The notes under the pieces are model-generated. The model saw only the letters and a program-made list of their open reading frames with translations, was not told where the DNA came from and did no database searches. From Anaerolineae bacterium (GTDB taxonomy: Bacteria > Chloroflexota > Anaerolineae > Aggregatilineales > Phototrophicaceae), in contig JALOOG010000029.1 of assembly GCA_025454525.1 (NCBI GenBank), positions 1 through 37,448 of the forward strand: a stretch of DNA of 37,448 nucleotides, written 5' to 3'. The position numbers were made by a program, and so were the translations under genes. The stretch's first letter is position 1. Each line of letters starts with the position of its first letter. Shown here one piece after another: positions 1 through 29,424 of the stretch.

Positions 1-159
1 TGTATGGCACTGGCACGTTTAGCGCCTTTCCCACGTCAAAAAATAGAAGCCGACTCACCTGATAACAACCGCGTTATCCCTGATTTAACTAATCCACTCG
101 TTGCCCTCGTGATCATTTATCATCGTGGTCAGCAGACTCAAAACAGTCCGCATGTGTGA
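1..159 (+). CDS. possible C-terminal end of an unidentified gene (partial)
   Basis: Frame 1 is open from the first base of the window to a TGA at 157-159, giving 52 residues with an ATG at 4. The tail reads ...LVALVIIYHRGQQTQNSPHV. It could be the end of a gene starting outside the window or a chance open frame; no Shine-Dalgarno site can be judged so close to the edge, and I do not recognise the sequence. A hairpin at 171-205 follows immediately, which mildly supports a real 3' end. Confidence 0.25.
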   Translation, partial: CMALARLAPFPRQKIEADSPDNNRVIPDLTNPLVALVIIYHRGQQTQNSPHV

Positions 160-170
160 GTGAACACGAA

Positions 171-205
171 TGCAGAGGACGTTTAGGTGATTCGTGTCCT
201 CTGCA
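171..205. repeat. 10-bp perfect inverted repeat (hairpin)
   Basis: TGCAGAGGAC (171-180) is exactly complementary to GTCCTCTGCA (196-205), with a 15-nt loop. A competing CACGAA/TTCGTG pair (165-170 and 191-196) overlaps it. Neither side has a T-run, so it is not a classical intrinsic terminator. It lies between the partial frame at 1-159 and a minus-strand coding remnant, where a convergent terminator would be expected. Confidence 0.45.
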
Positions 206-235
206 CAGTGAACAGATCATCAGAAATAGACGAGA

Positions 236-430
236 TTAGAACGCGAGGCGCGTCGTCGTGCCTAATTCAGCGCGTCCGGTGGTGTTTAACTTGAGGGGGT
301 AATTTTGACTAGGTGCAGGCTCTAAGTACCAAGTGGTCTCCAATTGTGTTGAGTCGATGCCATTGGCCCATGATGGAATACTGTTGATTCTGCTGCCCGG
401 TTTAAGGTGATCACCTTGAACTATTGCTAT
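236..430 (-). pseudogene. start-less coding remnant of unknown protein
   Basis: On the minus strand a frame is open from just after a TGA (431-433) down to a TAA (236-238), giving 64 codons. The peptide looks like real protein (...PSWANGIDSTQLETTWYLEP, then ...NYPLKLNTTGRAELGTTTRLAF) and has a C-terminus typical of an extracytoplasmic beta domain. It has no ATG or GTG and its only TTG is central, so it cannot be translated normally. It lies 33 nt beyond the stop of the 91-codon gene in the same direction. Either it is a decayed gene, or the upstream half sits in another frame after a frameshift. I do not recognise the family. GATC is scarce here, as in the flanking hypotheticals. Confidence 0.3.
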
Positions 431-463
431 TCAAAGCAGTTTACAACTAAAAACTGACCGTTT

Positions 464-739
464 TTAATCGTAAACATCTCCATCAATCGTATAATCTCGG
501 TTGGCATTCGGTCTCGCAGAAGGCTGAATGCGTGATTGAGGCTCACTTGACCGCTCAAGCTCTGTGAGGGCCATTTGCTTGGCCGATAAAATTTCCGCCT
601 GTGCTTGTTTCACCAGAAGCGTAAGCAGATGGGTAAAATGGTTAAACGCCTCTGCGGCCAGAAGCGCGGTGGTGGTGGCTGCCACCGGCGCGTTAACCTC
701 GTTTTGTCTGTCTGGTAAGGGTACTCCTTGATCGGTCAT
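464..739 (-). CDS. hypothetical 91-residue helical protein
   Basis: I do not recognise this protein. Residues about 20-65 form one long Ala/Leu/Gln-rich stretch (ALLAAEAFNHFTHLLTLLVK, then QAQAEILSAKQMALTEL) that should be an amphipathic helix or coiled coil. The C-terminal 25 residues are polar, low in hydrophobics and end in acidic DGDVYD, so probably disordered. There is no signal peptide. Its ATG overlaps the stop of the upstream 282-codon gene in an ATGA (736-739), which implies translational coupling and a shared operon. The composition suggests a small accessory or partner of the upstream protein; that is inference. Confidence 0.6.
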   Translation of the reverse strand: MTDQGVPLPDRQNEVNAPVAATTTALLAAEAFNHFTHLLTLLVKQAQAEILSAKQMALTELERSSEPQSRIQPSARPNANRDYTIDGDVYD

Positions 740-1584
740 GATTGATCCTTTTCAATTTTTCCGGTTTTTAAGTAGTCTTTCAACAAAGTGTAAAATTCAC
801 GAAGCGAATTTGCGACATTGGTTACACAGTACACCAGAACGCCTTCATCCATCGGAATGGCCTCCATCTGATGCGATCTGTTAGACCATATAACTTTATT
901 AGCCAATTCAACAATTTTCTCCACCGTTAGCGGGTAATTTACCGCTAAATCAGGGTATTCGGTCTTGAGATCTTCAATAAACCCGTTGATGTCGCGATGA
1001 TAACGCAAAGGGGTATCTAAAAGCGCTTCACTCACGGCACTATCCCCACGTATTTCTAAAACCCCTAATGAGACAAATACGCGCAATTCATCGATCATGC
1101 GCTTCGTATTTATCGGCCCGCCCTTGTCTAAAAAATGATGGAATCGCTTGTAATTACCCAAATCGTATACGGTATCAAAGGGTGATTTTTCCCATCGCTT
1201 TAACCATTGGAGGTACTCTTTTCCTTGGATGGTTAGGGTGACTGTTGATCCCCAGATTTCCACTTCCCCGTCATCGCTAAATATCGATGTGTAAACGTCC
1301 ACAAGCCAAGTTGCATTAAATCGATAATTTTCTGGCTGAAAGTTGTGATCGATATCATTTAATACTTCAGCGATCGTCGTTGAGCTTTCACCTGATACGT
1401 AGAGGGGTATTTCAGTATTAGGTGCTACTTTCACATCTTGAACTGAAATTTGTTCCAGAGTCTGAAACGGCTCAGTGGTAAGCAGTTGTCTAACCAGTTG
1501 TCTAACCAGTTGTGTGAAACGCTGTGCAGAACTGACCTGCTTCTCAAACCCGAACGTCAAATAGACTTCAAAATCCCAGCCCAT
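736..1584 (-). CDS. hypothetical 282-residue protein
   Basis: A soluble-looking protein without signal peptide or membrane segments. The N-terminus (MGWDFEVYLTFGFEKQV) reads as beta strands followed by a helix; the middle has alternating strands (DGEVEIWGSTVTLTIQGKEY) and the C-terminal third is helical, ending in a Lys/Glu tail. No catalytic motif stands out and I cannot name the family. The start is supported by an AAAGGATAA Shine-Dalgarno about 5-13 nt upstream of the ATG. A 12-bp tandem repeat encodes LVRQLVRQ near residues 26-33. It is the middle gene of a three-gene minus-strand set and overlaps the next by 4 nt. GATC is less frequent than in the genes beyond the tRNA, hinting at different ancestry. 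Confidence 0.65.
   Translation of the reverse strand: MGWDFEVYLTFGFEKQVSSAQRFTQLVRQLVRQLLTTEPFQTLEQISVQDVKVAPNTEIPLYVSGESSTTIAEVLNDIDHNFQPENYRFNATWLVDVYTSIFSDDGEVEIWGSTVTLTIQGKEYLQWLKRWEKSPFDTVYDLGNYKRFHHFLDKGGPINTKRMIDELRVFVSLGVLEIRGDSAVSEALLDTPLRYHRDINGFIEDLKTEYPDLAVNYPLTVEKIVELANKVIWSNRSHQMEAIPMDEGVLVYCVTNVANSLREFYTLLKDYLKTGKIEKDQS
1481..1512. repeat. 12-bp in-frame tandem repeat inside the 282-codon gene
   Basis: TCTAACCAGTTG occurs at 1489-1500 and again at 1501-1512, preceded by a partial copy (AGCAGTTG, 1481-1488). The unit is 12 bp, so the reading frame is kept and copy-number change would add or remove four residues (LVRQ) in a helix. Confidence 0.8.
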
Positions 1585-1610
1585 CGGCTTTATCCTTTCT
1601 GCTGTTAACT

Positions 1611-1841
1611 TTACGGAAAATCTTGTTCAATGACTTGGATATAAACACCTTTAGTTACGCCATCAACAACGGCACCCTGTACATTAAATGTCGGAACCGA
1701 AATAGTTATTCTTTGAGCGGTATTGACATGATCACAAAGGTAACCTCCAACTTCAGTGTAACCATCAATACGAGAACCTTGACGAGTGTAAAGTTGAAAC
1801 TCACTTATGTCTAATTTTTTAGTCGTTAATTTTGAAGACAA
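1611..1841 (-). CDS. hypothetical 76-residue protein, uncertain start
   Basis: An open frame with a beta-rich composition (ITISVPTFNVQGAVVDGV, KGVYIQVIEQDFP) and one Cys. The only candidate start is TTG at 1841 with no convincing Shine-Dalgarno, so the true N-terminus may differ. It lies 26 nt upstream of the 282-codon gene in the same direction and probably heads that operon. A 63-codon frame on the opposite strand overlaps it; I prefer this one because of operon geometry. I do not recognise the family. Confidence 0.4.
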   Translation of the reverse strand: MSSKLTTKKLDISEFQLYTRQGSRIDGYTEVGGYLCDHVNTAQRITISVPTFNVQGAVVDGVTKGVYIQVIEQDFP

Positions 1842-1928
1842 GTTTGTTTATGTAGAGTTATTGCGAATTTTGCCTATCTTTGGGGTATTTGTTTTAAGGT
1901 GAAAGGGTGTGAGTAATAAAATATAGTG

Positions 1929-1963
1929 AAAAACAAAACAGGTGAAATTATATTCACCTGTTT
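1929..1963 (-). terminator. intrinsic terminator of tRNA-Lys
   Basis: An 11-bp perfect stem (1936-1946 with 1953-1963, loop ATTATA) is followed on the minus strand by TGTTTTTC. It begins 19 nt past the tRNA 3' end, so it should terminate the tRNA transcript before the hypothetical operon. Confidence 0.75.
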
Positions 1964-1981
1964 GACTTAAGCTTTAAATAA

Positions 1982-2053
1982 TGACCTTGGAAGGATTCGA
2001 ACCTTCAACCAACTGATTAAAAGTCAGCTGCGCTACCGTTGCGCTACAAGGCC
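1982..2053 (-). tRNA. tRNA-Lys (anticodon TTT)
   Basis: A 72-nt cloverleaf on the minus strand. The acceptor stem is GGCCTTG/CAAGGTC with one G-T pair and discriminator A. The D stem is GCGC/GCGC, the anticodon stem GCTGA/TCAGT with loop CTTTTAA (anticodon TTT, reads AAA and AAG), and the T stem GAAGG/CCTTC with loop TTCGAAT. CCA is not encoded and must be added enzymatically. It has its own promoter (2069-2097) and terminator (1929-1963), so it is a single-gene unit. Its 3' end faces the atypical 1-1980 segment, the side where tRNA-targeting integrases insert. Confidence 0.96.
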
Positions 2054-2068
2054 GGTGACATAAAGGTC

Positions 2069-2097
2069 ATTCTACAAAAGAACCTTTCTGATTTCAA
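2069..2097 (-). promoter_or_regulatory. sigma-70 promoter for tRNA-Lys
   Basis: On the minus strand TTGAAA (2092-2097) and TAGAAT (2069-2074) are separated by exactly 17 bp. Transcription would start near 2062, some 9 nt before the mature tRNA 5' end. Confidence 0.75.
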
Positions 2098-2204
2098 GCA
2101 CAAATTTGATCAAAAACAGATTAGTTCTTATCACGTCCTTACAGGGATCGATCAGAGCATATGTTACACTTGAGCGATTGTTATCCGTTAAGGTGAGACC
2201 TCAC

Positions 2205-3752
2205 ATGACTGTTGATCCCATTAGCCTAGAAGTGTTTAAAAACCTGTTTATCTCGGTTGCAGAAGAGATGGGACTCACCCTTCAGCGCACCGCTTTTAGC
2301 CCGAACATCCGTGAACGATTGGATTTTAGTTGCGCGGTGTTTGATCTGTCGGGACGCATGATCGCACAAGCGGCCCATATCCCGGTTCATCTTGGCAGTA
2401 TGCCCGCGTCGGTAGAATCCGCATTACAGTCAATCAGCACATGGAATCCCGGTGATGTCGTGATCCTCAACGATCCCTATCACGGAGGAACACATCTACC
2501 AGACATCACGATGATCTCTCCGGTGTTTTGGGCTGAATCGGTCGCTTTTTTTGTGGCGAGTCGCGCTCATCATGCCGATGTGGGCGGTATGTCCCCCGGA
2601 TCATTGCCGCTTAGCACAGAATTATATCAAGAAGGTCTGATTATCCCGCCGATCAAGTTAATCGAACACGGGACACAATTAGACGGGGTGTTAAAGCTCA
2701 TCTTAAGCAATAGTCGCGCTCCACAAGAACGCGCAGGCGATCTAGCCGCTCAACTCGCCGCACAACGGATCGGCGCGATTCGATTGGATCATTTGATTCA
2801 AACGCACGGGATCGATCGTTGCTTAGCGCACACCGAAGCGCTCTTAGATTACGCGCAACGCATAACCCAAGCCCTGATTCAAGCGCTACCAGACGGCACC
2901 TATACTTTTTGTGACTATCTTGAAGGTGACGGTCAAAGCGATGATCCTTTGCGGATCATGGTGACGATCCGCATTGTGGATGATCAAATGACGGTTGATT
3001 TTACCGGAAGCGCCTCACAAACCCTTGGCAATGTGAACGCAGTAGAAGCGATAGTGCGTTCAGCGACTTGGTACGCGGTACGATTATTGGCAACCGATGA
3101 TCTTCCAGTGAATCATGGGTGTTTTGTGCCTGTCAAGGTGATCTGTCCACCGCATAGCTTGTTGAGTCCTGATTTTCCGGCGGCCGTCGCTGTGGGCAAT
3201 ACCGAAACCAGTCAACGAATTGTAGACACGGTGTTAGGCGCATTAGCCCAAGCACTCCCGGATCGCATTCCGGCGGCGAGTCAAGGCACGATGAATAACT
3301 TGACGATTGGCGGGCGCGATTTTGTCTACTATGAAACGATCGCGGGCGGCCATGGCGCGAGTCCGATCGGGCCCGGTTTAAGCGGGCGGCATAGCCACAT
3401 GACCAACACGTTAAATACACCGATAGAGGCCTTAGAACACGTTCTCCCCTTGCGCGTGTTGCGTTATGCGTTGCGTGAAGATGAAAATGCGGGTGGTGGT
3501 GGGGTACATCAAGGCGGCGCGGGGATCGAGCGGGTTTACGAGTTTTTAACCCCGTGTCGGGTGACGATTAACAGTGAACGGCGGTTGATCGCACCCTATG
3601 GGCTTCAAGGCGGGCAATCGGGGCAAACAGGCCAAAATAACCTGATTCGCGATGAAGTTGTGCAACCTTTGTCGGCAAAAGTGACCTTTCAAGCACAAGT
3701 CAATGATCGCTTGGTGATCAAGACTCCCGGAGGCGGCGGATGGGGCAAATAA
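2205..3752 (+). CDS. hydantoinase B/oxoprolinase family protein (HyuB-like)
   Basis: The family comprises ATP-dependent N-methylhydantoinase/5-oxoprolinase beta-type subunits and acetone carboxylase relatives. The N-terminus (MTVDPISLEVFKNLFISVAE), AFSPNIRERLDFSCAVFD, the NDPYHGGTHLPDITMISPVF block, ASRAHHADVGG and the C-terminal glycine-rich TPGGGGWG are all characteristic. Length is 515 residues, normal for HyuB. I use ATG 2205 because AAGGTGAG lies 8 nt upstream and the family N-terminus begins there; the frame stays open upstream to 2106. Such proteins usually pair with a HyuA ATPase subunit, but none is beside it, so it is an orphan here or its partner is elsewhere. The 3' end overlaps the next gene by 13 nt. 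Substrate cannot be told from sequence. Confidence 0.9.
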   Translation: MTVDPISLEVFKNLFISVAEEMGLTLQRTAFSPNIRERLDFSCAVFDLSGRMIAQAAHIPVHLGSMPASVESALQSISTWNPGDVVILNDPYHGGTHLPDITMISPVFWAESVAFFVASRAHHADVGGMSPGSLPLSTELYQEGLIIPPIKLIEHGTQLDGVLKLILSNSRAPQERAGDLAAQLAAQRIGAIRLDHLIQTHGIDRCLAHTEALLDYAQRITQALIQALPDGTYTFCDYLEGDGQSDDPLRIMVTIRIVDDQMTVDFTGSASQTLGNVNAVEAIVRSATWYAVRLLATDDLPVNHGCFVPVKVICPPHSLLSPDFPAAVAVGNTETSQRIVDTVLGALAQALPDRIPAASQGTMNNLTIGGRDFVYYETIAGGHGASPIGPGLSGRHSHMTNTLNTPIEALEHVLPLRVLRYALREDENAGGGGVHQGGAGIERVYEFLTPCRVTINSERRLIAPYGLQGGQSGQTGQNNLIRDEVVQPLSAKVTFQAQVNDRLVIKTPGGGGWGK

Positions 3753-4486
3753 ACACGTTATTTCACACCGCGATCGGTTATGGTGAGATTAACGCGATCC
3801 ATGGGCAGTATGAATTGACCCTTCCTCACGCGGATCGCGATCGTTATAGTGACGCACAAGTAACCAGTTATCGATCGCCGTCTGCATTTACCTATCATCC
3901 CCCATTGCGAATGACGGTGCGCGCTTACGCGCAAGGTGACCTTCAAGGAACAGCTGGCTTTGGCTTTTGGAATCACCCCTTTGAGCCGGGATCAAAACGG
4001 TTACGTTTGCCTAAGGCGGTGTGGTTTTTCTTTGCCTCTCCGCCTAGTAACATGGCCTTAGCGCAAAATATATCCGGTTACGGTTGGAAAGCGGCCACAT
4101 TTGATGCAACTCGTCCCCTGTTTTTGGCGCTACTCCCCACGGCCCCGATCGGTTTCTTGCTGATGCGCGTCCCGATATTTTATCGACACCTCTGGCCGAT
4201 CGCACAACAGGCGATCGGGGTGAGTGAATATCGGATCGCCTCAACGATGCCAACTGCGGCCTACACCTATCAATTAGAGTGGCATCGCGATCGGGTCAAG
4301 TTCGCGATCGATGGAGACGTGATCCTTGAAACTCCCAACGCACCGCACGGGCCATTGGGATTCATCGCTTGGATCGATAATCAATATGCGGTGATCACCC
4401 CTCAAGGTCAATTTGGTTTCGGGTTATTAGAGCTAAATCACCCCCAAAGCTTGATCTTAGAGCAGATCCACATCGAGTCTCTCTAA
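3740..4486 (+). CDS. hypothetical concanavalin A-like/GH16-like beta-sandwich protein
   Basis: A 248-residue cytosolic-looking protein (no signal peptide) rich in beta strands and aromatics. Segments such as GTAGFGFWNHPFEPG, AVWFFFASPPSNM, YQLEWHRDRVKFAIDGDVI and GPLGFIAWIDNQYAVITPQG resemble LamG/GH16-type jelly rolls, which often carry a GFGFWN...P strand and a 'V.F.IDG' strand pair. I see no GH16 catalytic ExDxE motif, so I do not claim hydrolase activity. Its ATG lies inside the last codons of the HyuB-like gene (13-nt overlap), implying translational coupling and linked function. The role is unknown. Confidence 0.6.
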   Translation: MGQINTLFHTAIGYGEINAIHGQYELTLPHADRDRYSDAQVTSYRSPSAFTYHPPLRMTVRAYAQGDLQGTAGFGFWNHPFEPGSKRLRLPKAVWFFFASPPSNMALAQNISGYGWKAATFDATRPLFLALLPTAPIGFLLMRVPIFYRHLWPIAQQAIGVSEYRIASTMPTAAYTYQLEWHRDRVKFAIDGDVILETPNAPHGPLGFIAWIDNQYAVITPQGQFGFGLLELNHPQSLILEQIHIESL

Positions 4487-4506
4487 GAGCTTTAAGGTTT
4501 TGCCTT

Positions 4507-4512
4507 TATAAT
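4507..4512 (+). promoter_or_regulatory. perfect TATAAT -10 hexamer before the UbiD-family gene
   Basis: TATAAT lies at 4507-4512, ending one base before the GTG at 4513 that gives the longest open frame. The hexamer 17 bp upstream (TAAGAG) is a poor -35. If it is a real promoter, transcription begins near 4519 and translation must start downstream, which agrees with the chosen GTG at 4555. Confidence 0.4.
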
Positions 4513-4554
4513 GTGTGTTTAGAACGTTTTGAACATTGTAAATGGATTGTGGTT

Positions 4555-6054
4555 GTGGCTTATCGTAATCTTGATGAATTTATCGTGCGTTTGGAAACAG
4601 CGCGACAAGTGCGTAAATCCAAGCGTCCGCTTCGCAATTTAAGCGATCTTCCCATTGATCAAAAGACCTTATGGGTCGAATCAGATGATACCCTGCCATT
4701 GGTGACACGCTTGTTTAACACTGAAACCAAAATGGCATGGGCGTTAGGGGCAGAGTCCTTAGCGCTATTCGGTCAACGCTTTGAGCGCTTATTTGATCCG
4801 CAATTGTCGAATAACCTGATGGGACGTGCCGCAGATTTTTTAGGCATTCTTCGCACCATTACCGCGCCGATCGGTAAACTCAAAACAATTTCAGTCCAAC
4901 ATCATATCCATATTGCACCGAAACTCCCTCGCTTACCGTTTCTATCTCACGGTGAAGGGGATTATTTATTCGGAGCGCAACTTGTGACCCCGCAGGGGGT
5001 GACATCAGATCATGTTCGCTTTTATCAATCCGATCAACTCGGTGTCCCTTTTATAACGAAACAATCTGAACCGATTCCGATCGCGATCGTCTTGGGAGGA
5101 GATCCGGCGCAAATTTGGTCAAGCATGATCCCGTTACCTCAAACGTTACCATCCTATTTTCTCGCAAATTGGATTCGCGGACAAGCGATCCCGCTTGCTC
5201 CGGCACATACCATCCCGTTGGATATTCCCGCTAATGCGGAGATCGTGATCGAAGGGTGGTTAGATCCGAGTCAAACGGTCTCTGAATCGATTTATGATCC
5301 CCAAAAGCGGTTATCGGGTCATGAAACGCTCACGTTGATGCAAGTGACCGCGATCACACATCGCGATCAAGCGGTTTGTCCGATGATCAGCGCGGACGAT
5401 CGTCACTTTATGCAGCAGGCAACCAAGCGGTTATTTTTGCCGATCCTCAAATTGCAATATGCGGATATTGTGGATCTGCAAGCGTATTTTGACGGCGATC
5501 TAATCATCGTGCGCGCTCATACCACCCACGCGCAAAAGATCCTCTTTGGACTCTGGGGGACAGACATCGCATGGCAAAATCGCATGATGATGATCGTACC
5601 GGAATCGATTCCAGCAGATGATCTTAACGGGGTGATATATCACTTATTCAATGCGGTCAATTGGGGTGAGGCGCTCACAGTGGTACAGGGACGAGTAGAT
5701 CCACTCTTGAGACAAAATGGCATTAAAACCAAAATCGGCATTGATGCAACTCAGACGATCCAACCTAGCACCGAACCCTCGGCGCGTGTGGTTTCAGTGG
5801 ACGGTATTCGGGATTATGTGTGGTGTGGTACGGGGTTGTTACTGCTCCATTTGGAAGCAAGTGGCGATCCCGAAACGATCATCAAGGCACTATGGGCAAG
5901 CGGTTATGACTGTAATATGATCGTGTGTGATCAACGTGTTGATCTTGCACAAAGTGAGCAACTCCTCCATCAATTGGTGTATGGGGTTATGTGGCAAGAA
6001 GATATTTGGTTTCATCAACAACGCATCGGCATTAACGCCACAGCAGTAAGGTAA
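4555..6054 (+). CDS. UbiD-family (prenylated-FMN decarboxylase-like) protein, divergent
   Basis: UbiD enzymes are prFMN-dependent (de)carboxylases; in quinone synthesis they decarboxylate the prenylated aromatic ring. Family features visible: N-terminal AYRNLDEFIVRLE (E. coli UbiD: KYNDLRDFLTLLE), VLGGDPAQI, and PANAEIVIEGWLDP followed by MQVTAITHRDQA and FLPILKLQYADIVDL. I chose GTG 4555, giving 499 residues, the usual length; the frame also allows GTG at 4513 or 4549. Oddities: aligning by eye to E. coli UbiD, the conserved Arg in YRQQ becomes Gln (FYQSD), and the EGPYGDHTGYY segment is replaced by an unrelated ESIYDPQKRLSGHE. It may be a specialised or non-catalytic paralogue. The next gene is the quinone methyltransferase, so I infer a late menaquinone role (MqnL-like or its partner). 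Confidence 0.78.
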   Translation: MAYRNLDEFIVRLETARQVRKSKRPLRNLSDLPIDQKTLWVESDDTLPLVTRLFNTETKMAWALGAESLALFGQRFERLFDPQLSNNLMGRAADFLGILRTITAPIGKLKTISVQHHIHIAPKLPRLPFLSHGEGDYLFGAQLVTPQGVTSDHVRFYQSDQLGVPFITKQSEPIPIAIVLGGDPAQIWSSMIPLPQTLPSYFLANWIRGQAIPLAPAHTIPLDIPANAEIVIEGWLDPSQTVSESIYDPQKRLSGHETLTLMQVTAITHRDQAVCPMISADDRHFMQQATKRLFLPILKLQYADIVDLQAYFDGDLIIVRAHTTHAQKILFGLWGTDIAWQNRMMMIVPESIPADDLNGVIYHLFNAVNWGEALTVVQGRVDPLLRQNGIKTKIGIDATQTIQPSTEPSARVVSVDGIRDYVWCGTGLLLLHLEASGDPETIIKALWASGYDCNMIVCDQRVDLAQSEQLLHQLVYGVMWQEDIWFHQQRIGINATAVR

Positions 6055-6065
6055 ATGGGTCAATT

Positions 6066-6776
6066 ATGCAACTACAAGGCAAAGACAAAGCAACTTACGT
6101 ACAAGGCATGTTCGGACGGATTGCCGAACGTTATAACCTGATGAATCGCATTATGACCGGGGGGCAAGATCAACGTTGGCGGCGGTTTGTGGTACAAAAA
6201 GCGCAAGTTCCGCCCAACGGAGTGATCTTAGATCTCGCCACTGGGACGGGTGACATCGCGTTTGAGGTATTACACGCACATCCTAACACCAAAGTGTTCG
6301 GGGCGGATTTTTCGTTGCCGATGATGTTTGTCGGTAAACGTACCCTGTTAGGGGATCTGGTCAATTGGTGTGGCGCAGATGCACTCAATTTACCGTTTCC
6401 CGATCAAAGCTTTCATGCGGTGATGTCTGGTTATCTGTTACGCAACGTCACCGACATTCGTCAAGCATTGCGCGAACAAATGCGCGTTCTCAAACCGGGT
6501 GGAAAAATCGTGGTGTTGGATAGCTCACCACCGCCCCCGAATTTACTCCGACCGTTTATCATGCTGTATTTGCGTTATGGGATTCCCCTTTTAGGGCGGA
6601 TCATCAGCGGGAAACAAGGTGCGGATGCGTATCGTTACTTACCAGAATCGACACAGGCGTTTAAGACACCACAAGAACTCGCCGCGTTGATGCGTGAGGC
6701 GGGGGTGCAGAATGTCGAATTTAAAACCTTTATGTTCGGCACGATGGCGGTACATTGGGGCAATAAAGCCAATTAA
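6066..6776 (+). CDS. ubiE: demethylmenaquinone methyltransferase MenG/UbiE
   Basis: This is the SAM-dependent C-methyltransferase that performs the final ring methylation of menaquinone (or the ubiquinone equivalent), probably at the cytoplasmic membrane face. Seen: VQGMFGRIAERYNLMNRIMT (UbiE signature 1 region), SAM motif I ILDLATGTGD (about residues 54-63), the RVLKPGGKIVVLDSS signature 2, and near the C-terminus YRYLPESTQAFKTPQEL. The usual Glu of signature 2 (LExS) is Asp here (LDSS), a mild change. Length of 236 residues is typical. It follows the UbiD-family gene by 11 nt in the same direction. Which quinone is made cannot be read from this locus. Confidence 0.93.
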   Translation: MQLQGKDKATYVQGMFGRIAERYNLMNRIMTGGQDQRWRRFVVQKAQVPPNGVILDLATGTGDIAFEVLHAHPNTKVFGADFSLPMMFVGKRTLLGDLVNWCGADALNLPFPDQSFHAVMSGYLLRNVTDIRQALREQMRVLKPGGKIVVLDSSPPPPNLLRPFIMLYLRYGIPLLGRIISGKQGADAYRYLPESTQAFKTPQELAALMREAGVQNVEFKTFMFGTMAVHWGNKAN

Positions 6777-6786
6777 TGCTGACCGT

Positions 6787-6809
6787 GGGATGGGTTATTC
6801 ATCCATCCC
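6787..6809. terminator. weak hairpin between convergent ubiE and infA
   Basis: GGGATGG (6787-6793) pairs with CCATCCC (6803-6809) around a 9-nt loop, overlapping the infA stop. No T-run follows on either strand, so termination here is uncertain. Confidence 0.3.
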
Positions 6810-7046
6810 CGGTTTACCACCGTCACGATGACGATAGGTGATCCGTCCACGGGTAGGATCATAGACGCTCATCTCAACCTTCACCCGATCACCCACCGCG
6901 ATACGGATGTAAAATTTACGCATTTTGCCGGAAAGATAAGCGAGGATTTTGTGACCGTTGTCTAGCTGAACCAAAAATTGCGTATTTGGAAGGGCTTCAA
7001 TCACATTGCCTTCAACTTCAATTTTATCGTCGTTTTTATTCGACAT
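6795..7046 (-). CDS. infA: translation initiation factor IF-1
   Basis: A small OB-fold factor that occupies the 30S A site during initiation. The hallmarks [58 protein letters not shown] match IF-1 throughout. It has 83 residues against about 72 for E. coli; the surplus is a charged N-terminus (MSNKNDDK) and a C-terminal tail ending [12 protein letters not shown] replaces the usual MRKN or MRKH. AAGGAG lies 4 nt upstream of the ATG. It is separated from its common home beside rpmJ/rpsM and follows rpsU, after a 99-nt gap with a hairpin, in the direction of the rpsA-like gene. Confidence 0.96.
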
Positions 7047-7102
7047 AGAACTCCTTAAGGGTTATCACCAACACAATTTCCATTATAACTGATCCATAAA
7101 CG

Positions 7103-7129
7103 AGAGGGGTGATTTAAAATCACCCCTCT
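7103..7129 (-). terminator. GC-rich hairpin after rpsU
   Basis: AGAGGGGTGA (7103-7112) pairs with TCACCCCTCT (7120-7129), a perfect 10-bp stem. On the minus strand it is followed by CGTTTATGG, only a weak U-tract. It probably reduces rather than abolishes read-through from rpsU into infA. Confidence 0.6.
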
Positions 7130-7144
7130 TGGGTGTCACTCTCA

Positions 7145-7345
7145 CTATTTACCTTGCGCCTTACGTTGGCGACGACGAGAACGGCGGATCGCTTTTTTCT
7201 TCTCAATACGACGCAGTTCGCTCTTAGAAATGTGCCAACGTTTGCGGCGTACCGTGCTTAAAATGCCCGCATTCGTAACACGCTTACGAAAACGGCGCAA
7301 GAGTTGTTCTTGCGTTTCATTCGGTTTGAGTCGGACGGATGCCAT
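7145..7345 (-). CDS. rpsU: 30S ribosomal protein bS21
   Basis: A 66-residue highly basic protein of the 30S platform, near the anti-Shine-Dalgarno end of 16S rRNA. Family features: MASVRLKPNETQEQLLRRFR, the KRWHISKSELRRIEKK core, and the Arg/Lys-rich tail RSRRRQRKAQGK. The frame can begin at a GTG four codons earlier, but that GTG lies inside the Shine-Dalgarno AAAGGGGGTGA, which sits ideally before ATG 7345, so I use the ATG. It lies 49 nt downstream of the S1 gene in the same direction, and S21 and S1 are physical neighbours on the ribosome. Confidence 0.94.
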   Translation of the reverse strand: MASVRLKPNETQEQLLRRFRKRVTNAGILSTVRRKRWHISKSELRRIEKKKAIRRSRRRQRKAQGK

Positions 7346-7394
7346 CGAGTGTTTCACCCCCTTTCTGAGTAAATTTGCTGTGAAACACGCTCAC

Positions 7395-8642
7395 CTATAC
7401 GGTTACGGTATCATCCGGCTGGAGGGCCGATTGTACAACATCGCCTGAGGCATCGCTATCCTCAGCTTGGACTTCAGGCAACACCGCTAAAACTACATTG
7501 GGATGTTGCTCTTGCCAACGCATGACTTCATCTTTTGTCACTTCTTTGAGGCTTAACCCTAAACGTTGTTTGTCGGATTCGATGCTGATCACTCGCATCA
7601 ACAAACGATCGCCTTCACGGATAAATTCACTCGGATGCGAGGGCGCGGGATTGGAGATCTGGCTGACGTGTAAGAGGGCTTCGACTCCGGGTTCCATGCT
7701 GACAAACGCGCCAAATTCAGACAAACGTGAGACCATACCGTCCACCAGTTGGCCAACATGGTACATTTCATCAACGATCGACCACGGATTCGGTTGCAAG
7801 CGTTTTAAGCTTAAGCCAATCCGTTTGCCTTCATCGTCTAAGCGCAAGATGTAAACCGTCACTTCATCGCCCACATTTAACACTTCACGCGGGTGTTTCA
7901 CGCGATGCCAAGCTAATTCGGAGATGTGGATCAAACCATCTGCACCACCGAGATCAACAAACGCCCCAAAGTCGCGTAATCCGCTCACGACACCCTTACG
8001 CACTTCGCCTTCTTTAAGTTCTTCTAATAACACTTCTTTGCGCGCATCACGGCTACCGCGTTGCGCGTCACGTTGGCTAAAGACTAAACGGCGGCGTTTC
8101 CGGTTGACTTCGATCACCTTGAGGTTGACAGGCTGCCCCACTAAGCGCGTGAGATAACTGGTGCGTTCGTCTTCGCTCAAGCCGCGTGGGAGATCGGCGA
8201 CATGACTGGCTGGCACAAAACCACGCAAATTGCCAAACAAGATAATCAGGCCGCCGCGATTCGCATCAGTGACCGCACCGCGCCAGACTTCATCTTTTTG
8301 GAGCAGATCTTCGGCCAATTTCCAATCTTCATTTTGACGGGCTTGTGAAATCGACAATACCAGATTGCCGTCTTCGTCTTCCAAACGTAGGATCGTTACA
8401 TCAACATCTTGTCCAACCTTGAAATCCGAAGGCTGCATTCCTAGACGTTCTAGATCACGACGCGAGACAAAACCATCGCGCATCGACCCCACACCGATGA
8501 TTAACCCCTGATTATCGACAGATAACACCGTTCCAGCGACCAGATCGCCCCGCTCTAATTGATCTTCCTCGAAAGAAGCTTCTAAAAGGGCGGCAAAGTC
8601 TAGCTCGTCGTATACCATGTTCTTCATATTTTGATTCAACAT
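7395..8642 (-). CDS. rpsA: 30S ribosomal protein S1-like, four S1 domains
   Basis: An RNA-binding protein that brings mRNA to the 30S subunit. Four S1 repeats are visible at about residues 31-101, 117-191, 212-281 and 296-367; repeats 3 and 4 have the full GxVSxLxxFGAFV...G.xGLxHxSxL pattern (KGVVSGLRDFGAFVDL, DGMVSRLSEFGAFVSM). The acidic C-tail after 380 is probably flexible. Length is 415 residues, typical of the four-domain S1 of Gram-positive-like and Chloroflexota bacteria rather than the six-domain E. coli form. Start 8642 is set by GGAGGG 8 nt upstream; the open frame reaches 24 codons further but lacks that site. A consensus promoter (8829-8857) implies a leader of about 180 nt. Confidence 0.92.
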   Translation of the reverse strand: MLNQNMKNMVYDELDFAALLEASFEEDQLERGDLVAGTVLSVDNQGLIIGVGSMRDGFVSRRDLERLGMQPSDFKVGQDVDVTILRLEDEDGNLVLSISQARQNEDWKLAEDLLQKDEVWRGAVTDANRGGLIILFGNLRGFVPASHVADLPRGLSEDERTSYLTRLVGQPVNLKVIEVNRKRRRLVFSQRDAQRGSRDARKEVLLEELKEGEVRKGVVSGLRDFGAFVDLGGADGLIHISELAWHRVKHPREVLNVGDEVTVYILRLDDEGKRIGLSLKRLQPNPWSIVDEMYHVGQLVDGMVSRLSEFGAFVSMEPGVEALLHVSQISNPAPSHPSEFIREGDRLLMRVISIESDKQRLGLSLKEVTKDEVMRWQEQHPNVVLAVLPEVQAEDSDASGDVVQSALQPDDTVTV

Positions 8643-9013
8643 ATCTATAAATCCCTCCGAACGAAATTTGGTGTTGATCTTAAGGGCAAGACAATGCGAA
8701 ATGAGGCAACCCAAGACGGATTGACTTGTTTACAACTTGATTGTGACACCCTACAAGGATACGTCAGAAATGAAGCGTAGCTCGCCTAAAGTTAAGCGAA
8801 CGCTGTTCCCTCCCATAAGATCGGCGGCATTATACTCATCAAGTATTTTCTTGTCAATCACCGAGATAAAAATTTCCAATTTTGCCCGCAACAATTTCGT
8901 ACAAATTGCTCAAAAACCTTTGTATGAGTTCACAAGCGGAAATTGGACTTAAGTGGCTCTATTTGTTGGTGTTACGATAGGTATCTCAGTTAGTGCATAG
9001 TATGGGTTAAACC
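8643..9013. other. 371-bp divergent intergenic region (rpsA leader and exporter upstream region)
   Basis: It contains the rpsA promoter (8829-8857) and about 180 nt of rpsA leader (8643-8822). The leader includes a short AGCGTTCGCT self-complement and a GGGAGGG Shine-Dalgarno-like run near its 5' end but no riboswitch class I recognise. On the plus side I find no convincing -35/-10 pair for the ABC exporter at 9014. Confidence 0.6.
8829..8857 (-). promoter_or_regulatory. fully consensus sigma-70 promoter for rpsA-rpsU-infA
   Basis: On the minus strand TTGACA (8852-8857) and TATAAT (8829-8834) are separated by exactly 17 bp, a perfect match to the housekeeping consensus. The predicted start is near 8822. 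Confidence 0.88.
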
Positions 9014-10852
9014 ATGACAGGACAAACTCAATCTCCAGTAGCCGATGTGCGTTGGCTAGGGAAACTCTTGTTCGTGCATCGTTGGGCAGCAATTAGCGCG
9101 GTGTTATGTGGTATGGTTGGTGGTATCACCGCTTCGTTAGAACCTTTTATCATCGGTCTGATGATCGATCGGCTTAGCCAACCGGAACAAATTTTAACGC
9201 AACTGCGCCTGATGAACCCACCCCCACTCACCGCGGATCTGATCGTTGCACACAATCAAACCACTTTAGTAACCGATTTGGTCGAATTCATCGCGTTGAT
9301 GATCGGCCTAGCGGTGATCACGGTGATCGCATTCTATGGTCAGCGTCGGTATAGTGGCACGATCGCTTATGGGGTCAATTTTGATATTCGCAAACAACTT
9401 TTTGAAAATATGCTCACTTTGGAACAAGGCTTTTATCAAAAATACCCGACGGGTGACTTGATCTCACGGATGCACGCGGACATTGTCTTGATCTGGCAAT
9501 TATTCGCGCTGGGCTTTACACGGATCGGGAGCGCGATTACGACGGTGATCGCTGTGTTTATCTTGTTAGCGATCGAAAGCCTTCCGCTAACGATCTTGGT
9601 GTTTGTGGTCTTGACGATCTCCACCAGTATTCAGATGCGGGTAGGATTGGTGATCGCGCCCTTGTTTGAGAAAGTGCAAGATCAAGCGGGCGTGATGGCC
9701 GCCCTAGTGCAAGATGCTGTGAGTGGGATTCAGACGATCAAAACAGCGGGCAAAGAGTCCGGTGTTGGTGAGGCGTTTTATCGCGAAAACAAAGAATATC
9801 GACATCGTTGGTTATTCTTCAAACGACGTAATGAGCCGATCGGGTTGCTCCCCAATATGATCAGCGAGACCACGGCGGCAATTGTGGTGTTAGCGGGTGG
9901 GGTGATGACGCTCAACGGTGCGCTAAGTTTGGGTAATTTTACCAGTTTTCTCCTATATTTAGCGATGATCAGCACGGTCTTACTACAAATTGGCACGGTT
10001 TATCAACGGTATCAGCAGACTCGCGGGGCATTGACCCGCCTCACCCCCTTGTTACAACATGCCACGATCAGCAGTAAAGACTCAGCGCAAGGAGTCGAAC
10101 GTCTCAATGGTGCGATCACCTTTGAACGGGTGTCTGTCCGCCTTGATGACACTGAACTGCTAAAATCGATCTCGTTTCAGATTCCAGCCGGGAAAACGGT
10201 CGCCATTGTCGGGCCGACGGGGTGTGGAAAATCGCTCTTGGTGAGCCTGTTAGGGCGGGTGATCGATCCGAATGAAGGGCGGGTGTTGATCGATGGGGTT
10301 GATATTCGCGATTATACGTTGGATGAATTGCGTCGTGAGATCGCCTATGTACCGCAATCCACCTTTTTATTTAGCCAACCGTTGCATCAAAATGTCCGCA
10401 TGGGGCGCGATGAGATTAGCGAATTAGCGTTAGACAATGCCCTAAGGATCTCACGGGTGAGCAACGATATTCCGCAATTGCCGCAGGGCATAGATACCTT
10501 GGTGGGTGAGCGTGGCGTGATGCTCTCCGGTGGGCAAAAACAGCGCGTGGCGATTGCGCGGGCAGTGATTCGCGATCCGGCAATTTTGATCCTTGATGAT
10601 GCGCTCTCCAGTGTTGATACCCAGACAGCGGCGGATATTCTTAGCGAGTTGCGTCAAGTGATGCGAACCCGCACTAGCCTGATCATCGCGCACCGCATCG
10701 CCACCGTGAAAGACGCGGATTATATCTATGTGATGAGCAACGGTGAAATTGTGGAGCAAGGCACCCATATTGAGTTGATTGCGGCGCAAGGGGTATATGC
10801 TCAAATGGTTGAACGTGAATTTAGCGAGGATGTGTTAGAAAATGCAGACTAA
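9014..10852 (+). CDS. ABC exporter half-transporter, degenerate-site subunit
   Basis: A type-IV (ABCB-like) exporter half: an N-terminal membrane domain with about six helices (residues about 25-330), then a nucleotide-binding domain. Walker A is GPTGCGKS (about 400-407), signature LSGGQKQR (about 504), Walker B ILILDD (about 523-528) and the H-loop IIAHRIAT. The residue after Walker B is Asp (LDDALSSVD) instead of the catalytic Glu, while the partner gene keeps Glu. This is the TM287/BmrC-type arrangement of heterodimeric multidrug or lipid exporters. A Shine-Dalgarno is weak (GGGTT). It overlaps the partner gene by 11 nt, so the two are translated together. The substrate cannot be deduced. 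Confidence 0.92.
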   Translation: MTGQTQSPVADVRWLGKLLFVHRWAAISAVLCGMVGGITASLEPFIIGLMIDRLSQPEQILTQLRLMNPPPLTADLIVAHNQTTLVTDLVEFIALMIGLAVITVIAFYGQRRYSGTIAYGVNFDIRKQLFENMLTLEQGFYQKYPTGDLISRMHADIVLIWQLFALGFTRIGSAITTVIAVFILLAIESLPLTILVFVVLTISTSIQMRVGLVIAPLFEKVQDQAGVMAALVQDAVSGIQTIKTAGKESGVGEAFYRENKEYRHRWLFFKRRNEPIGLLPNMISETTAAIVVLAGGVMTLNGALSLGNFTSFLLYLAMISTVLLQIGTVYQRYQQTRGALTRLTPLLQHATISSKDSAQGVERLNGAITFERVSVRLDDTELLKSISFQIPAGKTVAIVGPTGCGKSLLVSLLGRVIDPNEGRVLIDGVDIRDYTLDELRREIAYVPQSTFLFSQPLHQNVRMGRDEISELALDNALRISRVSNDIPQLPQGIDTLVGERGVMLSGGQKQRVAIARAVIRDPAILILDDALSSVDTQTAADILSELRQVMRTRTSLIIAHRIATVKDADYIYVMSNGEIVEQGTHIELIAAQGVYAQMVEREFSEDVLENAD

Positions 10853-12656
10853 TCAAATCCCGATTCGGCAAGCGCTAACGGATCGTTATCTGTTGCGAAT
10901 GCTGGCACGCTTTGTCACGCCCTATTGGAAACAGCTGATGTTGGTGTTTTTGATGCTGTTAGGGGTGACAGGATTGTCGCTCTTACCCCCCTACTTGATT
11001 CAGCGATCGGTGGATGGCCCGATCACCGAAGGCAATTTAGCCGGATTGATCCCTTACGCAGTCTTCTATTTTTTGTGTATTCCGGCCCTGTTTGTGTTGC
11101 GATTTGGTCACATCTACTTGTTACAAACTGTCGGCCAAAGCGCGTTGATGAATTTGCGACAAACCTTGTTTGAACACATCCTCAAACAAGATATGCGGTT
11201 TTTTAATAAGACCCCCGTAGGTCAGATCGTTTCGCGTTTATCTAGCGATATTGAGGCGCTCACCGAGTTACTGTCTACCAGCATCGTGATCGTGATCAGT
11301 AACTTGATCACGTTGGTGGGAATCGTGATCGTGATGTTTGTGATCAATTGGCGCTTGGCTTTAATCAGTCTGGTTGTGTTACCGATCATGACTGGATCTA
11401 CGATCTATTTTCGCACCTCAATTCGACAATTGGCCACTCGTTTACATAAATTGGTGGCGGATTATCAGGCGTTTTTAAACGAACAATTCGGCGGGATGCT
11501 GATCGTACAACTTTTTGGCCGTCAACATATCAGCCGTCGTGAATTTGATACCTTGAACGCAGGTTATCGCGATATTCATAATGAGATGCGCGATCAATAC
11601 ACGGCCTTTTCGTCAGTGTTGCAAATGCTCTCGGTGATCGGCCTCGCGATGGTGTTATATGGCGGTGGACAAGGCTTACTGGCAGGATGGGCGACATTAG
11701 GCATGTTGATCTCGTTTATCCAATATTCACGGCGATCCTTTGAACCGATCATGTTGTTGTCGGAACAGTTTACCCAGATTCAAACTGCGCTATCAGCGGC
11801 CGATCGAATCGCCAGGATGCTAAGCGTTGAACCGGAGATCGTTGAACGTCCCCAAACGATCCCCTTAAATGACCGTGAAAAGTCGGTGACTTTTGAAAAG
11901 GTCGAATTTAGCTATGAGCCGGGGACTCCGGTGTTACGCGATGTGAGTGTACATATTTCGGCGGGTCAACGAGTCGCGATTGTCGGTGCGACCGGTGCGG
12001 GTAAAACATCGTTAGCCGGCCTCATTGCACGTTTTTATGATGTCACTAGCGGACAAATCTTGATCAATGGGATTGATGTGCGGGATCTATCAATCGCGGA
12101 TCTGCGTAAGCATGTGATGGTTGTGCCGCAAAATCCCTACTGCTTTAACGGCACGATCGCCGATAATTTACGCTTGTTTGATCCGACGATCACCGATGAA
12201 CAGATGATCGCCGCGGCAAAAACCGCATGTGCGGCCCCTTTCATTGAACGGTTGCCCGGAGGTTATGATTATATGTTATTGCCCGGTGCGGCCAATTTAT
12301 CTCAGGGTCAACGACAATTGCTTGCTTTGGCCCGCGCCTTGATTCACAACCCTGATAGCATCCTCGTGTTAGATGAAGCCACAAGTAACATCGACACCGA
12401 AACAGAGACTCTGATCCAAATGGGTTTACAACAGGTATTGCAAAATCGCACCAGTTTGATCATTGCACATCGTCTAAGCACGGTGCGTGATGCAGATCGG
12501 ATCTTGGTGATGAAACACGGTCAGATTGTGGAAGACGGTACACATGAAACCTTACTCCGGCAAAATGGACTTTACACCCGGTTGTATCAGCGCCAATTCC
12601 AAGAAACCAACGGTACCGCGCAACTGGCCGAATTGACCCGTAAACAAACACGTTAA
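10842..12656 (+). CDS. ABC exporter half-transporter, consensus-site subunit
   Basis: Partner of the preceding half-transporter. Membrane domain at about residues 20-320 with several long hydrophobic helices (e.g. LLSTSIVIVISNLITLVGIV), then a nucleotide-binding domain with Walker A GATGAGKT (about 381-388), signature LSQGQRQLL (about 486), Walker B ILVLDEATSNID (about 506-517) with the catalytic Glu, and the H-loop IIAHRLST. The altered signature (LSQGQ for LSGGQ) pairs in the heterodimer with the Asp-bearing Walker B of the first subunit, forming the degenerate ATP site as in TM287/288. Start ATG 10842 overlaps the upstream gene, with GAGGA about 10 nt before it. Confidence 0.92.
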   Translation: MQTNQIPIRQALTDRYLLRMLARFVTPYWKQLMLVFLMLLGVTGLSLLPPYLIQRSVDGPITEGNLAGLIPYAVFYFLCIPALFVLRFGHIYLLQTVGQSALMNLRQTLFEHILKQDMRFFNKTPVGQIVSRLSSDIEALTELLSTSIVIVISNLITLVGIVIVMFVINWRLALISLVVLPIMTGSTIYFRTSIRQLATRLHKLVADYQAFLNEQFGGMLIVQLFGRQHISRREFDTLNAGYRDIHNEMRDQYTAFSSVLQMLSVIGLAMVLYGGGQGLLAGWATLGMLISFIQYSRRSFEPIMLLSEQFTQIQTALSAADRIARMLSVEPEIVERPQTIPLNDREKSVTFEKVEFSYEPGTPVLRDVSVHISAGQRVAIVGATGAGKTSLAGLIARFYDVTSGQILINGIDVRDLSIADLRKHVMVVPQNPYCFNGTIADNLRLFDPTITDEQMIAAAKTACAAPFIERLPGGYDYMLLPGAANLSQGQRQLLALARALIHNPDSILVLDEATSNIDTETETLIQMGLQQVLQNRTSLIIAHRLSTVRDADRILVMKHGQIVEDGTHETLLRQNGLYTRLYQRQFQETNGTAQLAELTRKQTR

Positions 12657-27345: not shown

Positions 27346-29424
27346 ATGAAAGAGTATACGACGGAGATGCTGAGAAATGTCGCTCTAGTGGGCCACCAAG
27401 GATCGGGTAAAACCTCCTTGGTGGAAGCACTCCTCTTTAATACTGGCGCAATTTCCCGGTTAGGCAAGGTTGAAGAAGGCACAACCGTATCAGACTGGGA
27501 TGAAGATGAAAAACACCGTAAAATTTCGCTCTCCACTTCGGTAATCCCCCTTGAATTTGAAGATCACAAGATTAATGTATTGGATGCGCCGGGTTCAACC
27601 GATTTTCAAGGTGAGATCAAAAACGCGATCCGCGTGGCAGACTCGGTGATCGTGGTGGTCGATGCGGTGGCCGGGGTAGAAGTCGGTACGGAACTCGCTT
27701 GGGAATATGCCCAAGTGTACCAACAACCGATCATCGTGGTGATCAACAAAATGGATCGTGAAAATGCGGATTTTGAACGTACTTTAAACAACCTAAAAGA
27801 GACTTATCCCGACTATAAATTTATTCCGGTGATGTTGCCGATCGGTCAAGAGGCCGATTTTAAAGGCGTGATCAATGTCCTCACCCAAAAAGCCTATTAT
27901 GGCGCGGGTAAAGAACGTTCTGAACTGCCCGCTGATCTTGTTGAAAGCACGCATCAGGCCCATTTAGCATTGGTAGAAGCGGCCGCTGAAGCCGATGATG
28001 CGTACATCGAAAAATACTTCAACGAAGGTGAATTGACCTTTGAAGAAATTCGCGATGGGATGCGAAAAGCGGCCCGCAATCATCAACTCAATACGGTGCC
28101 GGTGTTTGTCACCTCTGGGACTAAAAATGTCGGTACTTACACGCTTTTAGAGGCGCTCCCCGTGTATACATCTGCGCCTTCCTTGCGTCGCTTTGGCACA
28201 CATCGCGAAGGCAACCCCGAAATTGAATATAACACCGCGCCACAAACCGATGAAAAACCCCTAGGGGCCTATGTCTTTAAGACCGTGAATGATCGTTTCG
28301 TCGGCACGCTCTCATATATCCGCATTTTCTCCGGTTACATTAAAAATGATAGCCGGAACTTCAATAACACCCGTCAAAGCGAAGAGCGCTTTAATAACTT
28401 GATGGTGGTGCGCGGAAAAGACACTTTCCCCGCCCCGATCTTACACGCGGGTGATATTGGAGTGGTCGCAAAACTCACCTCCACGCGCACAGGCGATACG
28501 ATCGCCGATCGAGATCAAAAGTTTGAGATTGTGAAACCCAACTTCCCTGAACCATTATATGCGATCTCGCTCACGCCCCGTACCCAAGCCGATAGCGCCA
28601 AAATGGGTACAATCCTGACCAATTTATGCGAGGCGGATCCCACTTTACGTTGGCGGCAAGATGCCGATACGAAGCAGATCCTGTTAGAGGGGATGGGTGA
28701 AGCGCATGTGATGTTGGCGATCAGTCGAGCAGAACGCTTAGGGGTGGGGATCGATACCCACTTGCCAAAAGTCCCCTATCGCGAAACGGTATCGCGTGAA
28801 GCTCAAGCAACCTATCGCCACAAGAAACAAAGTGGTGGTTCAGGTCAATTCGGTGAAGTGAGCTTGCGAGTATTGCCTAACGCGGGTGAAGGGTTTGTGT
28901 ATGAGGCAAAAATTTTCGGCGGTGCGATCTCACATCAATACATCCCGTCGGTGGAAAAAGGTGTGCTGTCTGTGTTACCGAACGGCGTGATCGCGGGTTA
29001 TCCGATCGTAGATGTGAAAGTGGTCGTCTTTGATGGCAAAGAACATCCGGTAGACTCAAAAGACATCGCGTTTCAGATTGCCGGACGTGAAGCATTTAAA
29101 GAAGCCTTTGCCGAAGCCGGCCCGGTGTTATTAGAGCCGATCATGGAAGTGAAGATCACGATCCCAGAACCGATCTTAGGGGATGTGATGAGCGATCTGA
29201 ATACCCGACGTGGGCGGGTGATGGGGATGGATACGCTTGGGGTTAAAAGTGTCGTGACAGCCGAAGTCCCGTTCGCGGAGATGATGCGCTACGAAAATCA
29301 ACTCCGTTCGATCAGCGGTGGGCGTGGGATCTACACGATGAAATTTGTACGTTATGAGCGCGTTCCGTCGCATCTGGCCGAAGGCATTATCAAAGCCCAT
29401 ACCGCCGAAGCACACGCGGAATAG
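27346..29424 (+). CDS. EF-G-like translational GTPase (EF-G type 2)
   Basis: A five-domain translational GTPase of 692 residues. G1 is GHQGSGKTS (16-24), G3 DAPG (80-83), G4 NKMD (134-137), and the C-terminal EF-G domains are clear (YRHKKQSGGSGQFGEVSLRV, LNTRRGRVMGMD). It is not canonical EF-G: switch I has DWDEDEKHRKIS instead of the DWMEQEQERGIT type, and switch II DAPGSTDF has Ser84 where EF-G and EF-Tu have the GTPase-activating His (DTPGHVDF). These traits place it with the EF-G-2-like paralogues, whose role (slow translocation, ribosome rescue or assembly) is poorly known. I use ATG 27346 (GGAGG 8 nt upstream), not the TTG at 27331. It is monocistronic with its own promoter. A standard fusA probably exists elsewhere. 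Confidence 0.88.
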   Translation: MKEYTTEMLRNVALVGHQGSGKTSLVEALLFNTGAISRLGKVEEGTTVSDWDEDEKHRKISLSTSVIPLEFEDHKINVLDAPGSTDFQGEIKNAIRVADSVIVVVDAVAGVEVGTELAWEYAQVYQQPIIVVINKMDRENADFERTLNNLKETYPDYKFIPVMLPIGQEADFKGVINVLTQKAYYGAGKERSELPADLVESTHQAHLALVEAAAEADDAYIEKYFNEGELTFEEIRDGMRKAARNHQLNTVPVFVTSGTKNVGTYTLLEALPVYTSAPSLRRFGTHREGNPEIEYNTAPQTDEKPLGAYVFKTVNDRFVGTLSYIRIFSGYIKNDSRNFNNTRQSEERFNNLMVVRGKDTFPAPILHAGDIGVVAKLTSTRTGDTIADRDQKFEIVKPNFPEPLYAISLTPRTQADSAKMGTILTNLCEADPTLRWRQDADTKQILLEGMGEAHVMLAISRAERLGVGIDTHLPKVPYRETVSREAQATYRHKKQSGGSGQFGEVSLRVLPNAGEGFVYEAKIFGGAISHQYIPSVEKGVLSVLPNGVIAGYPIVDVKVVVFDGKEHPVDSKDIAFQIAGREAFKEAFAEAGPVLLEPIMEVKITIPEPILGDVMSDLNTRRGRVMGMDTLGVKSVVTAEVPFAEMMRYENQLRSISGGRGIYTMKFVRYERVPSHLAEGIIKAHTAEAHAE

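Follow-up and report, generated by a model that had tools for sequence, protein, structure and literature searches.

Does the tRNA-Lys gene near the left end of this contig mark the edge of a genomic island, and if so, of what kind? The window, the whole stretch of DNA analysed here, is the complete contig G000:C2 (37448 bases) of a 5.24-Mb draft genome in 230 contigs. A sequence-only reading had suspected a recently acquired segment left of the tRNA, on the grounds of a drop in GATC, unrecognised genes and the direction in which the tRNA faces. The tRNA-Lys(TTT) gene is real according to both ARAGORN and Rfam (tRNA model, 75.3 bits), its 3′ end points toward bases 1-1981, the low-GATC side, as that reading had it, and its only match in the genome (E<=0.001) is itself. 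Base 1 is where the contig begins, which puts any DNA further left out of reach. Our analysis indicates that the DNA beside tRNA-Lys is probably the border of an old mobile element, and the features that bear on this are collected in Table 1.

Table 1 Features of the window around tRNA-Lys, with the kind of evidence for each.
Feature	Coordinates	Strand	Evidence
Contig end without an ORF of at least 60 aa	1..463		ORF list
91-aa ORF, candidate cargo	464..739	-	ORF list; without family or viral-contig match
282-aa ORFan gene, candidate cargo	736..1584	-	ORF list, length test
76-codon ORF with TTG start, doubtful gene, overlaps LSR-tail relic	1611..1841	-	ORF list
Putative decayed C-terminal tail of a large serine recombinase (LSR)	1807..1981	+	tblastn, frameshift-aware profile, spacing
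79-bp block repeated behind tRNA-Met	1893..1971	-	80% identity to G000:C136:2283-2361
Terminator-like hairpin of tRNA-Lys, within the LSR-tail stretch of the other strand	1936..1963	-	Hairpin scan
tRNA-Lys(TTT), presumed integration target	1982..2053	-	ARAGORN, Rfam
Conserved chromosomal block: hyuB, GH16-like, UbiD, UbiE, S1, two ABC transporters	2205..12656		OLB13 order

The GATC counts behind the original suspicion, 12 in 1-1980 and 26 in 2205-3752, proved exact; the corresponding expectations are 7.4 and 6.0 under a zero-order model, and 11.3 and 21.8 under a Markov-2 model. When 1980-base windows were moved along the whole contig in steps of 100 bases (mean 29.9, s.d. 5.8), the stretch 1-1980 had the lowest count, tied with the next step, and among 56 fragments of the same genome it ranked second lowest by GATC count and sixth by dinucleotide distance. 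GATC density tracks coding status, however: it is 16.2/kb in the coding DNA of the window (529 copies in 32569 nt, 24 genes), 7.4/kb in its other intergenic DNA (21 copies in 2819 nt, pieces of at least 30 nt) and 6.1/kb in 1-1980, where GC is 0.43, the other intergenic pieces having 0.415. The three left-side ORFs, if they are genes, are GATC-poor, with 3.6, 8.2 and 4.3/kb against 8.4 for the lowest of the 24 other genes. No tetranucleotide is more over-represented within 2054-37448 than GATC, whose 550 copies (3.98 times the zero-order expectation) lie mainly in genes. The drop in 1-1980 is the look of this genome's gene-poor DNA, and since its level matches that of other intergenic DNA it is not diagnostic of foreign origin; we reject GATC as evidence of transfer, of which composition by itself is no proof. 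The two sides of the tRNA are indeed unequal in composition, as the sequence-only reading held, but the difference is no greater than that shown by gene-poor DNA elsewhere in the window. If the edge is real, a compositional hint has led to it on mistaken grounds.

Gene order separates the two sides of the tRNA. Next to its tRNA-Lys, OLB13 (JZRA01000016.1) has seven genes of the window in unchanged order, namely hyuB, GH16-like, UbiD, UbiE, S1 and two ABC genes. The tRNA is divergent from hyuB in OLB13 and the window alike, and the UbiD match is weak (23% identity). Prado087 (L115) retains hyuB, UbiE, S1, the two ABC genes and the gene after them, on a contig that ends at hyuB. Judged by this synteny, the right side is old chromosome. 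Among named contigs, those whose protein comes nearest to hyuB of the window are for the most part Anaerolineae or Chloroflexi assembled from metagenomes. The collinearity between the window and OLB13 ends at tRNA-Lys, beyond which OLB13 has EF-G. This neighbour does not make the OLB13 left side evidently ancestral, because EF-G adjoins tRNA-Lys in only one of the 29 EF-G loci examined (taken from 92 relatives matched, some loci being cut by contig ends), and EF-G beside tRNA-Lys is therefore not supported as the ancestral order. The EF-G-like gene of the window lies at 27346-29424, 25 kb from tRNA-Lys; in G083, a member of OLB13's genus, a mutase-like gene comes after EF-G, an order that the window shares except for GH31. 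Across genomes the neighbour of tRNA-Lys may be an MFS transporter (G022), a 5′-nucleotidase (G010), a TPP enzyme (G016), an LSR (G007) or EF-G (OLB13). As a separate observation, nine hydantoinase-B-like genes are arrayed in each of two relatives (G010:C9:12637-30271 and G018:C8:192691-210265).

The sequence-only reading had proposed that the locus be compared in related genomes, and on doing so we found synteny kept only right of the tRNA, in OLB13, while at the DNA level 1-1981 had matches in none of 153 other genomes of the order (two candidates scored per genome, among the matches shown). The longest left-side ORF, of 282 aa, comprises 296 stop-free codons, which exceeds the maximum of 230 in 1000 dinucleotide shuffles and makes it too long for chance; by its length it is a real or recent gene. 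The sequence AGAAAGGA stands before it, and the 91-aa ORF overlaps its end by 4 nt. That the genes on this side are unrecognised was borne out, as none of the three ORFs matched Pfam, NCBIfam or PADLOC at E up to 1, and PHROGs gave two sub-marginal matches (E 0.032 and 0.18), both to the 282-aa ORF. For the 282-aa protein, no relative was found in any of 40 further genomes from the family and order, nor did searches of genome contigs, viral contigs, phages and plasmids bring one up, and PDB matches had E 0.32 or worse; two 15-bit matches among 399 other genomes of the phylum (50-58 residues, E 0.008-0.009) were taken as noise, and its single-sequence fold was unusable (pLDDT 39.6). A decayed fragment related to this ORFan lies at G000:C41:30049-30175 (L003), with 68% DNA identity over 150 query bases. 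Sporadic occurrence among relatives, seen here for both the DNA and the 282-aa protein, is a trait of tRNA-integrated islands. Another is an edge where an intact tRNA gene has its 3′ end, and here too the tRNA is whole and collinearity with OLB13 extends to its right only.

Among relatives, the DNA facing the 3′ end of tRNA-Lys can hold a large serine recombinase gene. In G007, which belongs to the same family as the window genome, a 576-aa LSR with a Resolvase domain (PF00239, 1.4e-20) followed by a Recombinase domain (PF07508, 5.6e-8) converges on tRNA-Lys, there the CTT and not the TTT isoacceptor, and its reading frame ends inside the tRNA. We used this LSR, together with three tyrosine-integrase proteins or fragments of the window genome, as tblastn queries against window positions 1-2300, 29 tRNA loci (23 of them tRNA-Lys) and six further loci. 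The same LSR family was recovered at tRNA-Lys in G014 (70% identity), G009 (57%) and G030 (60%, residues 342-576 only), which with G007 gives LSR genes at 4 of the 23 tRNA-Lys loci. The frames are open into the tRNA on the opposite strand in G007, G014 and G030, and the G009 gene has one in-frame stop, just before the tRNA. Weaker matches at L036, L042 and L038 fell wholly or largely within the tRNA. No att repeat was found within about 89 kb beyond the G007 LSR, where a 17-bp inverted match considered as the far att site was rejected on inspection. Relatives of the LSR were found in 14 plasmid records and 24 phage records, all below 60% identity (22-32% among the matches listed), and none was confirmed in viral contigs.

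Two further observations concern the structure of these genes. The LSR genes at L221:10311-11015 (G030) and L226:2055-2602 (G009), from genomes of different families, form a mosaic in which the bodies are 90.5% alike over 548 nt; then, no more than some 35 nt from a conserved ATACTGTAT, tails that differ in type take over, the G030 tail matching that of G007 (81% over 340 nt). We considered the conserved ATACTGTAT inside the gene as the exchange point, which was not supported, the mosaic break lying some 35 nt beyond it. G030 also carries a second LSR tail remnant (L221:16467-16685), about 6 kb from the tRNA-Lys end and beyond a short ORF that by eye looks toxin-like and two others that look transposase-like and Rhs-like, as if elements had piled up there.

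In the window itself, the LSR query matched 1857-2030 with E 2e-8 when the tRNA part was included, and 1-1981 with only E 0.88 when it was left out. The matching stretch reads toward tRNA-Lys and then antisense through the tRNA to 2030; beyond the tRNA the window has FAYLWGICFKV where the LSR has FAYLWHVTRRV, preceded in another frame by VVN-E...ELL as compared with VVNPE...ELL. To score this likeness apart from the tRNA, we built a profile of four LSR tails with the tRNA-coded residues left out and frameshifts allowed, and applied it to 300-nt flanks. The window flank scored 44.2, its best stretch ending near 1907, a score reached by none of 1000 shuffles (maximum 38.5), none of 2016 overlapping 300-mers of the window genome on both strands (maximum 40.5) and none of 23 other tRNA flanks (maximum 26.5; a 24th, L040, was dropped as too short), though the margin over these controls is modest and rests on about 100 nt. 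The distance from the FAYL codon to the tRNA end is 113 nt in the window and 110, 114, 116 and 118 nt in the relatives. The same profile gave the OLB13 flank 16.5, which was reached by 932 of 1000 shuffles and 1891 of 2016 segments, and a tail resemblance seen there by eye is not significant by profile or DNA test. Likewise set aside was L050 (G001), with a weak LSR match (E 0.008) and an ordinary profile score of 21.0.

LSR residues 1-497 had no match in 1-1981 (E<=0.01), which leaves the catalytic and recombinase domains unmatched there, and as far as similarity and position tell, the window holds a tail relic and not a member LSR gene. The relic is frameshifted near 1860 and interrupted by three in-frame stops, which indicates that it is old, contrary to the recent acquisition first supposed. 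The earlier statement that no integrase is visible was correct in that no LSR body lies in 1-1981, but it overlooked the apparent tail of a decayed serine-class integrase. Tyrosine integrases were considered as well: the genome has three (C99, C226 and C63), none matching window positions 1-2300 at E<=0.01. No second att copy was found in the whole 230-contig draft, in which the 3′ 22-mer of the tRNA, with up to 3 mismatches allowed, occurs once; the far end is not assembled onto the contig. Since the core common to the att sites of serine integrases is very short, an element of this class can do without a long repeat.

Part of the putative relic recurs elsewhere in the genome. The 79-bp block has a copy on contig C136 (E 6.9e-12; DNA score 76, reached by 0 of 2000 shuffles), behind a tRNA-Met gene that scores well in Rfam (71.4 bits), and at both loci it begins about 10 nt behind the tRNA. 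The C136 copy in turn resembles the LSR-tail DNA behind tRNA-Lys of G009, a member of another genus and the best of the four LSR loci in this comparison (23 of 25 bases; score 40, 0 of 2000 shuffles). Compared directly, the window is only weakly similar to G009 (score 22, 14 of 2000 shuffles) and not distinct from shuffles against G007 (score 17, 248 of 2000), so that the block is tied to LSR tails through an intermediate; by profile, the C136 flank scored a non-significant 24.2, a value that 97 of 1000 shuffles and 237 of 2016 segments attained. A hairpin begins 19-25 nt behind the tRNA in all six loci (window, C136, G007, G014, G030 and G009), and of the five scanned for a strict terminator pattern, the window, G007, G014 and G030 showed it and G009 did not. 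One might take the block for a duplicated tRNA terminator region of the genome unrelated to any integrase, given its strong hairpin followed by T-rich sequence and its similar start behind both tRNAs. We regard this as very unlikely, as the two tRNAs differ, the hairpin pattern occurs in the genome at these two places only, the likeness extends some 40 nt past the terminator, and related DNA lies inside the LSR gene tail of another genus.

Taken together, we favour, with a probability of about 0.7, the view that an integrative element once inserted itself at the tRNA 3′ end by means of an LSR and that what is left of it makes up the DNA to the left of tRNA-Lys. The LSR gene would converge on the tRNA with its frame running on through it on the opposite strand, so that the element would carry the tRNA 3′ end and terminator with it and the host tRNA would stay usable after insertion. 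In the window genome the LSR body would since have been lost and the tail decayed, with the ORFan pair (282 and 91 aa) as possible cargo. This view takes in the likeness and position of the tail, the relatives' LSR genes beside tRNA-Lys, and a right side that is conserved where the left is lineage-specific; integration at this site and the place of strand exchange we infer. The island edge originally proposed at the tRNA 3′ end is thus probably right, on the strength of the LSR-tail relic, the LSR genes of four relatives and a collinearity with OLB13 that extends rightward only, while its GATC basis falls away.

The alternative is that the left side is ordinary lineage-specific intergenic and ORFan DNA brought there by chromosomal rearrangement, the tRNA being a coincidental breakpoint and the LSR likeness a product of chance and tRNA conservation. 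GATC and GC that equal those of other intergenic DNA, a gene order around tRNA-Lys that varies between genera, and the confinement of several LSR tblastn matches (L036, L042) to the tRNA or its border would all agree with this. Yet the profile that omits the tRNA-coded residues still beats every control, the position of the relic fits the spacing in the relatives, and the 79-bp block behind tRNA-Met is left unexplained, and we consider a rearrangement unlikely. A bolder extension of the integrative-element reading, doubtful in our estimation, is an Anaerolineae mobile-element family with a dual-coded LSR tail, serving at once as integrase C-terminus and as tRNA 3′ part plus terminator, in which the tail and tRNA may stay behind as a landing pad for exchanged integrase bodies. 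Such a landing pad would explain tail-only loci such as the window, as well as the G030/G009 mosaic of nearly the same body with different tails.

One LSR family thus occupies tRNA-Lys in four genomes that belong to a single order, with putative relics at tRNA-Lys and probably at tRNA-Met in the window genome. If this reading is true, one piece of DNA serves as integrase tail, tRNA and terminator, and the element's own reaction may rewrite the end of its integrase gene, which is testable. In the open-licence PMC literature we found, among the matches listed, no paper on this LSR family at tRNA-Lys, which is weak evidence. Classical tRNA islands use tyrosine integrases; their edge falls at a tRNA 3′ end, the tRNA stays intact and the DNA beyond it is variable. 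The window resembles them in these three features of its edge, and differs in that 1-2300 shows no tyrosine integrase likeness and the tRNA end is not directly repeated. Dehalococcoides, in which the closest precedent occurs, belongs like the window genome to the Chloroflexota.

This precedent is formed by the ssrA islands with the serine integrase DsiB, described in the available excerpts of PMC3146451, where the 3′ end of DsiB always overlaps attL and may enter ssrA on the other strand. Likened by arrangement, both systems have a serine integrase beside an RNA gene, its 3′ end overlapping that gene on the opposite strand, and we count repeated insertion at one site as a further likeness (PMC3146451). 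The DsiB islands, however, target tmRNA (ssrA), whereas the LSR family here targets tRNA-Lys and probably tRNA-Met; according to the excerpted accounts they carry a six-gene module, which is not seen in the window, and they are marked by a direct repeat of about 20 bp (20 and 19 bp in two islands; PMC2764846), of which none was found at the window locus. Given the different target and the lack of a direct repeat at this locus, the system described here does not belong to the ssrA family. Serine-recombinase elements at tRNA genes also include the Mycobacterium AICEs (tRNA-Leu) and phage phiRSM1 (tRNA-Ser), and such integration was called rare in 2011 (PMC3218068). These belong to other phyla and use other tRNAs, and the excerpts of that paper mention no overlap of an integrase tail with the tRNA and terminator; what they have in common with the LSR family described here is the pairing of a serine recombinase with a tRNA target (PMC3218068).
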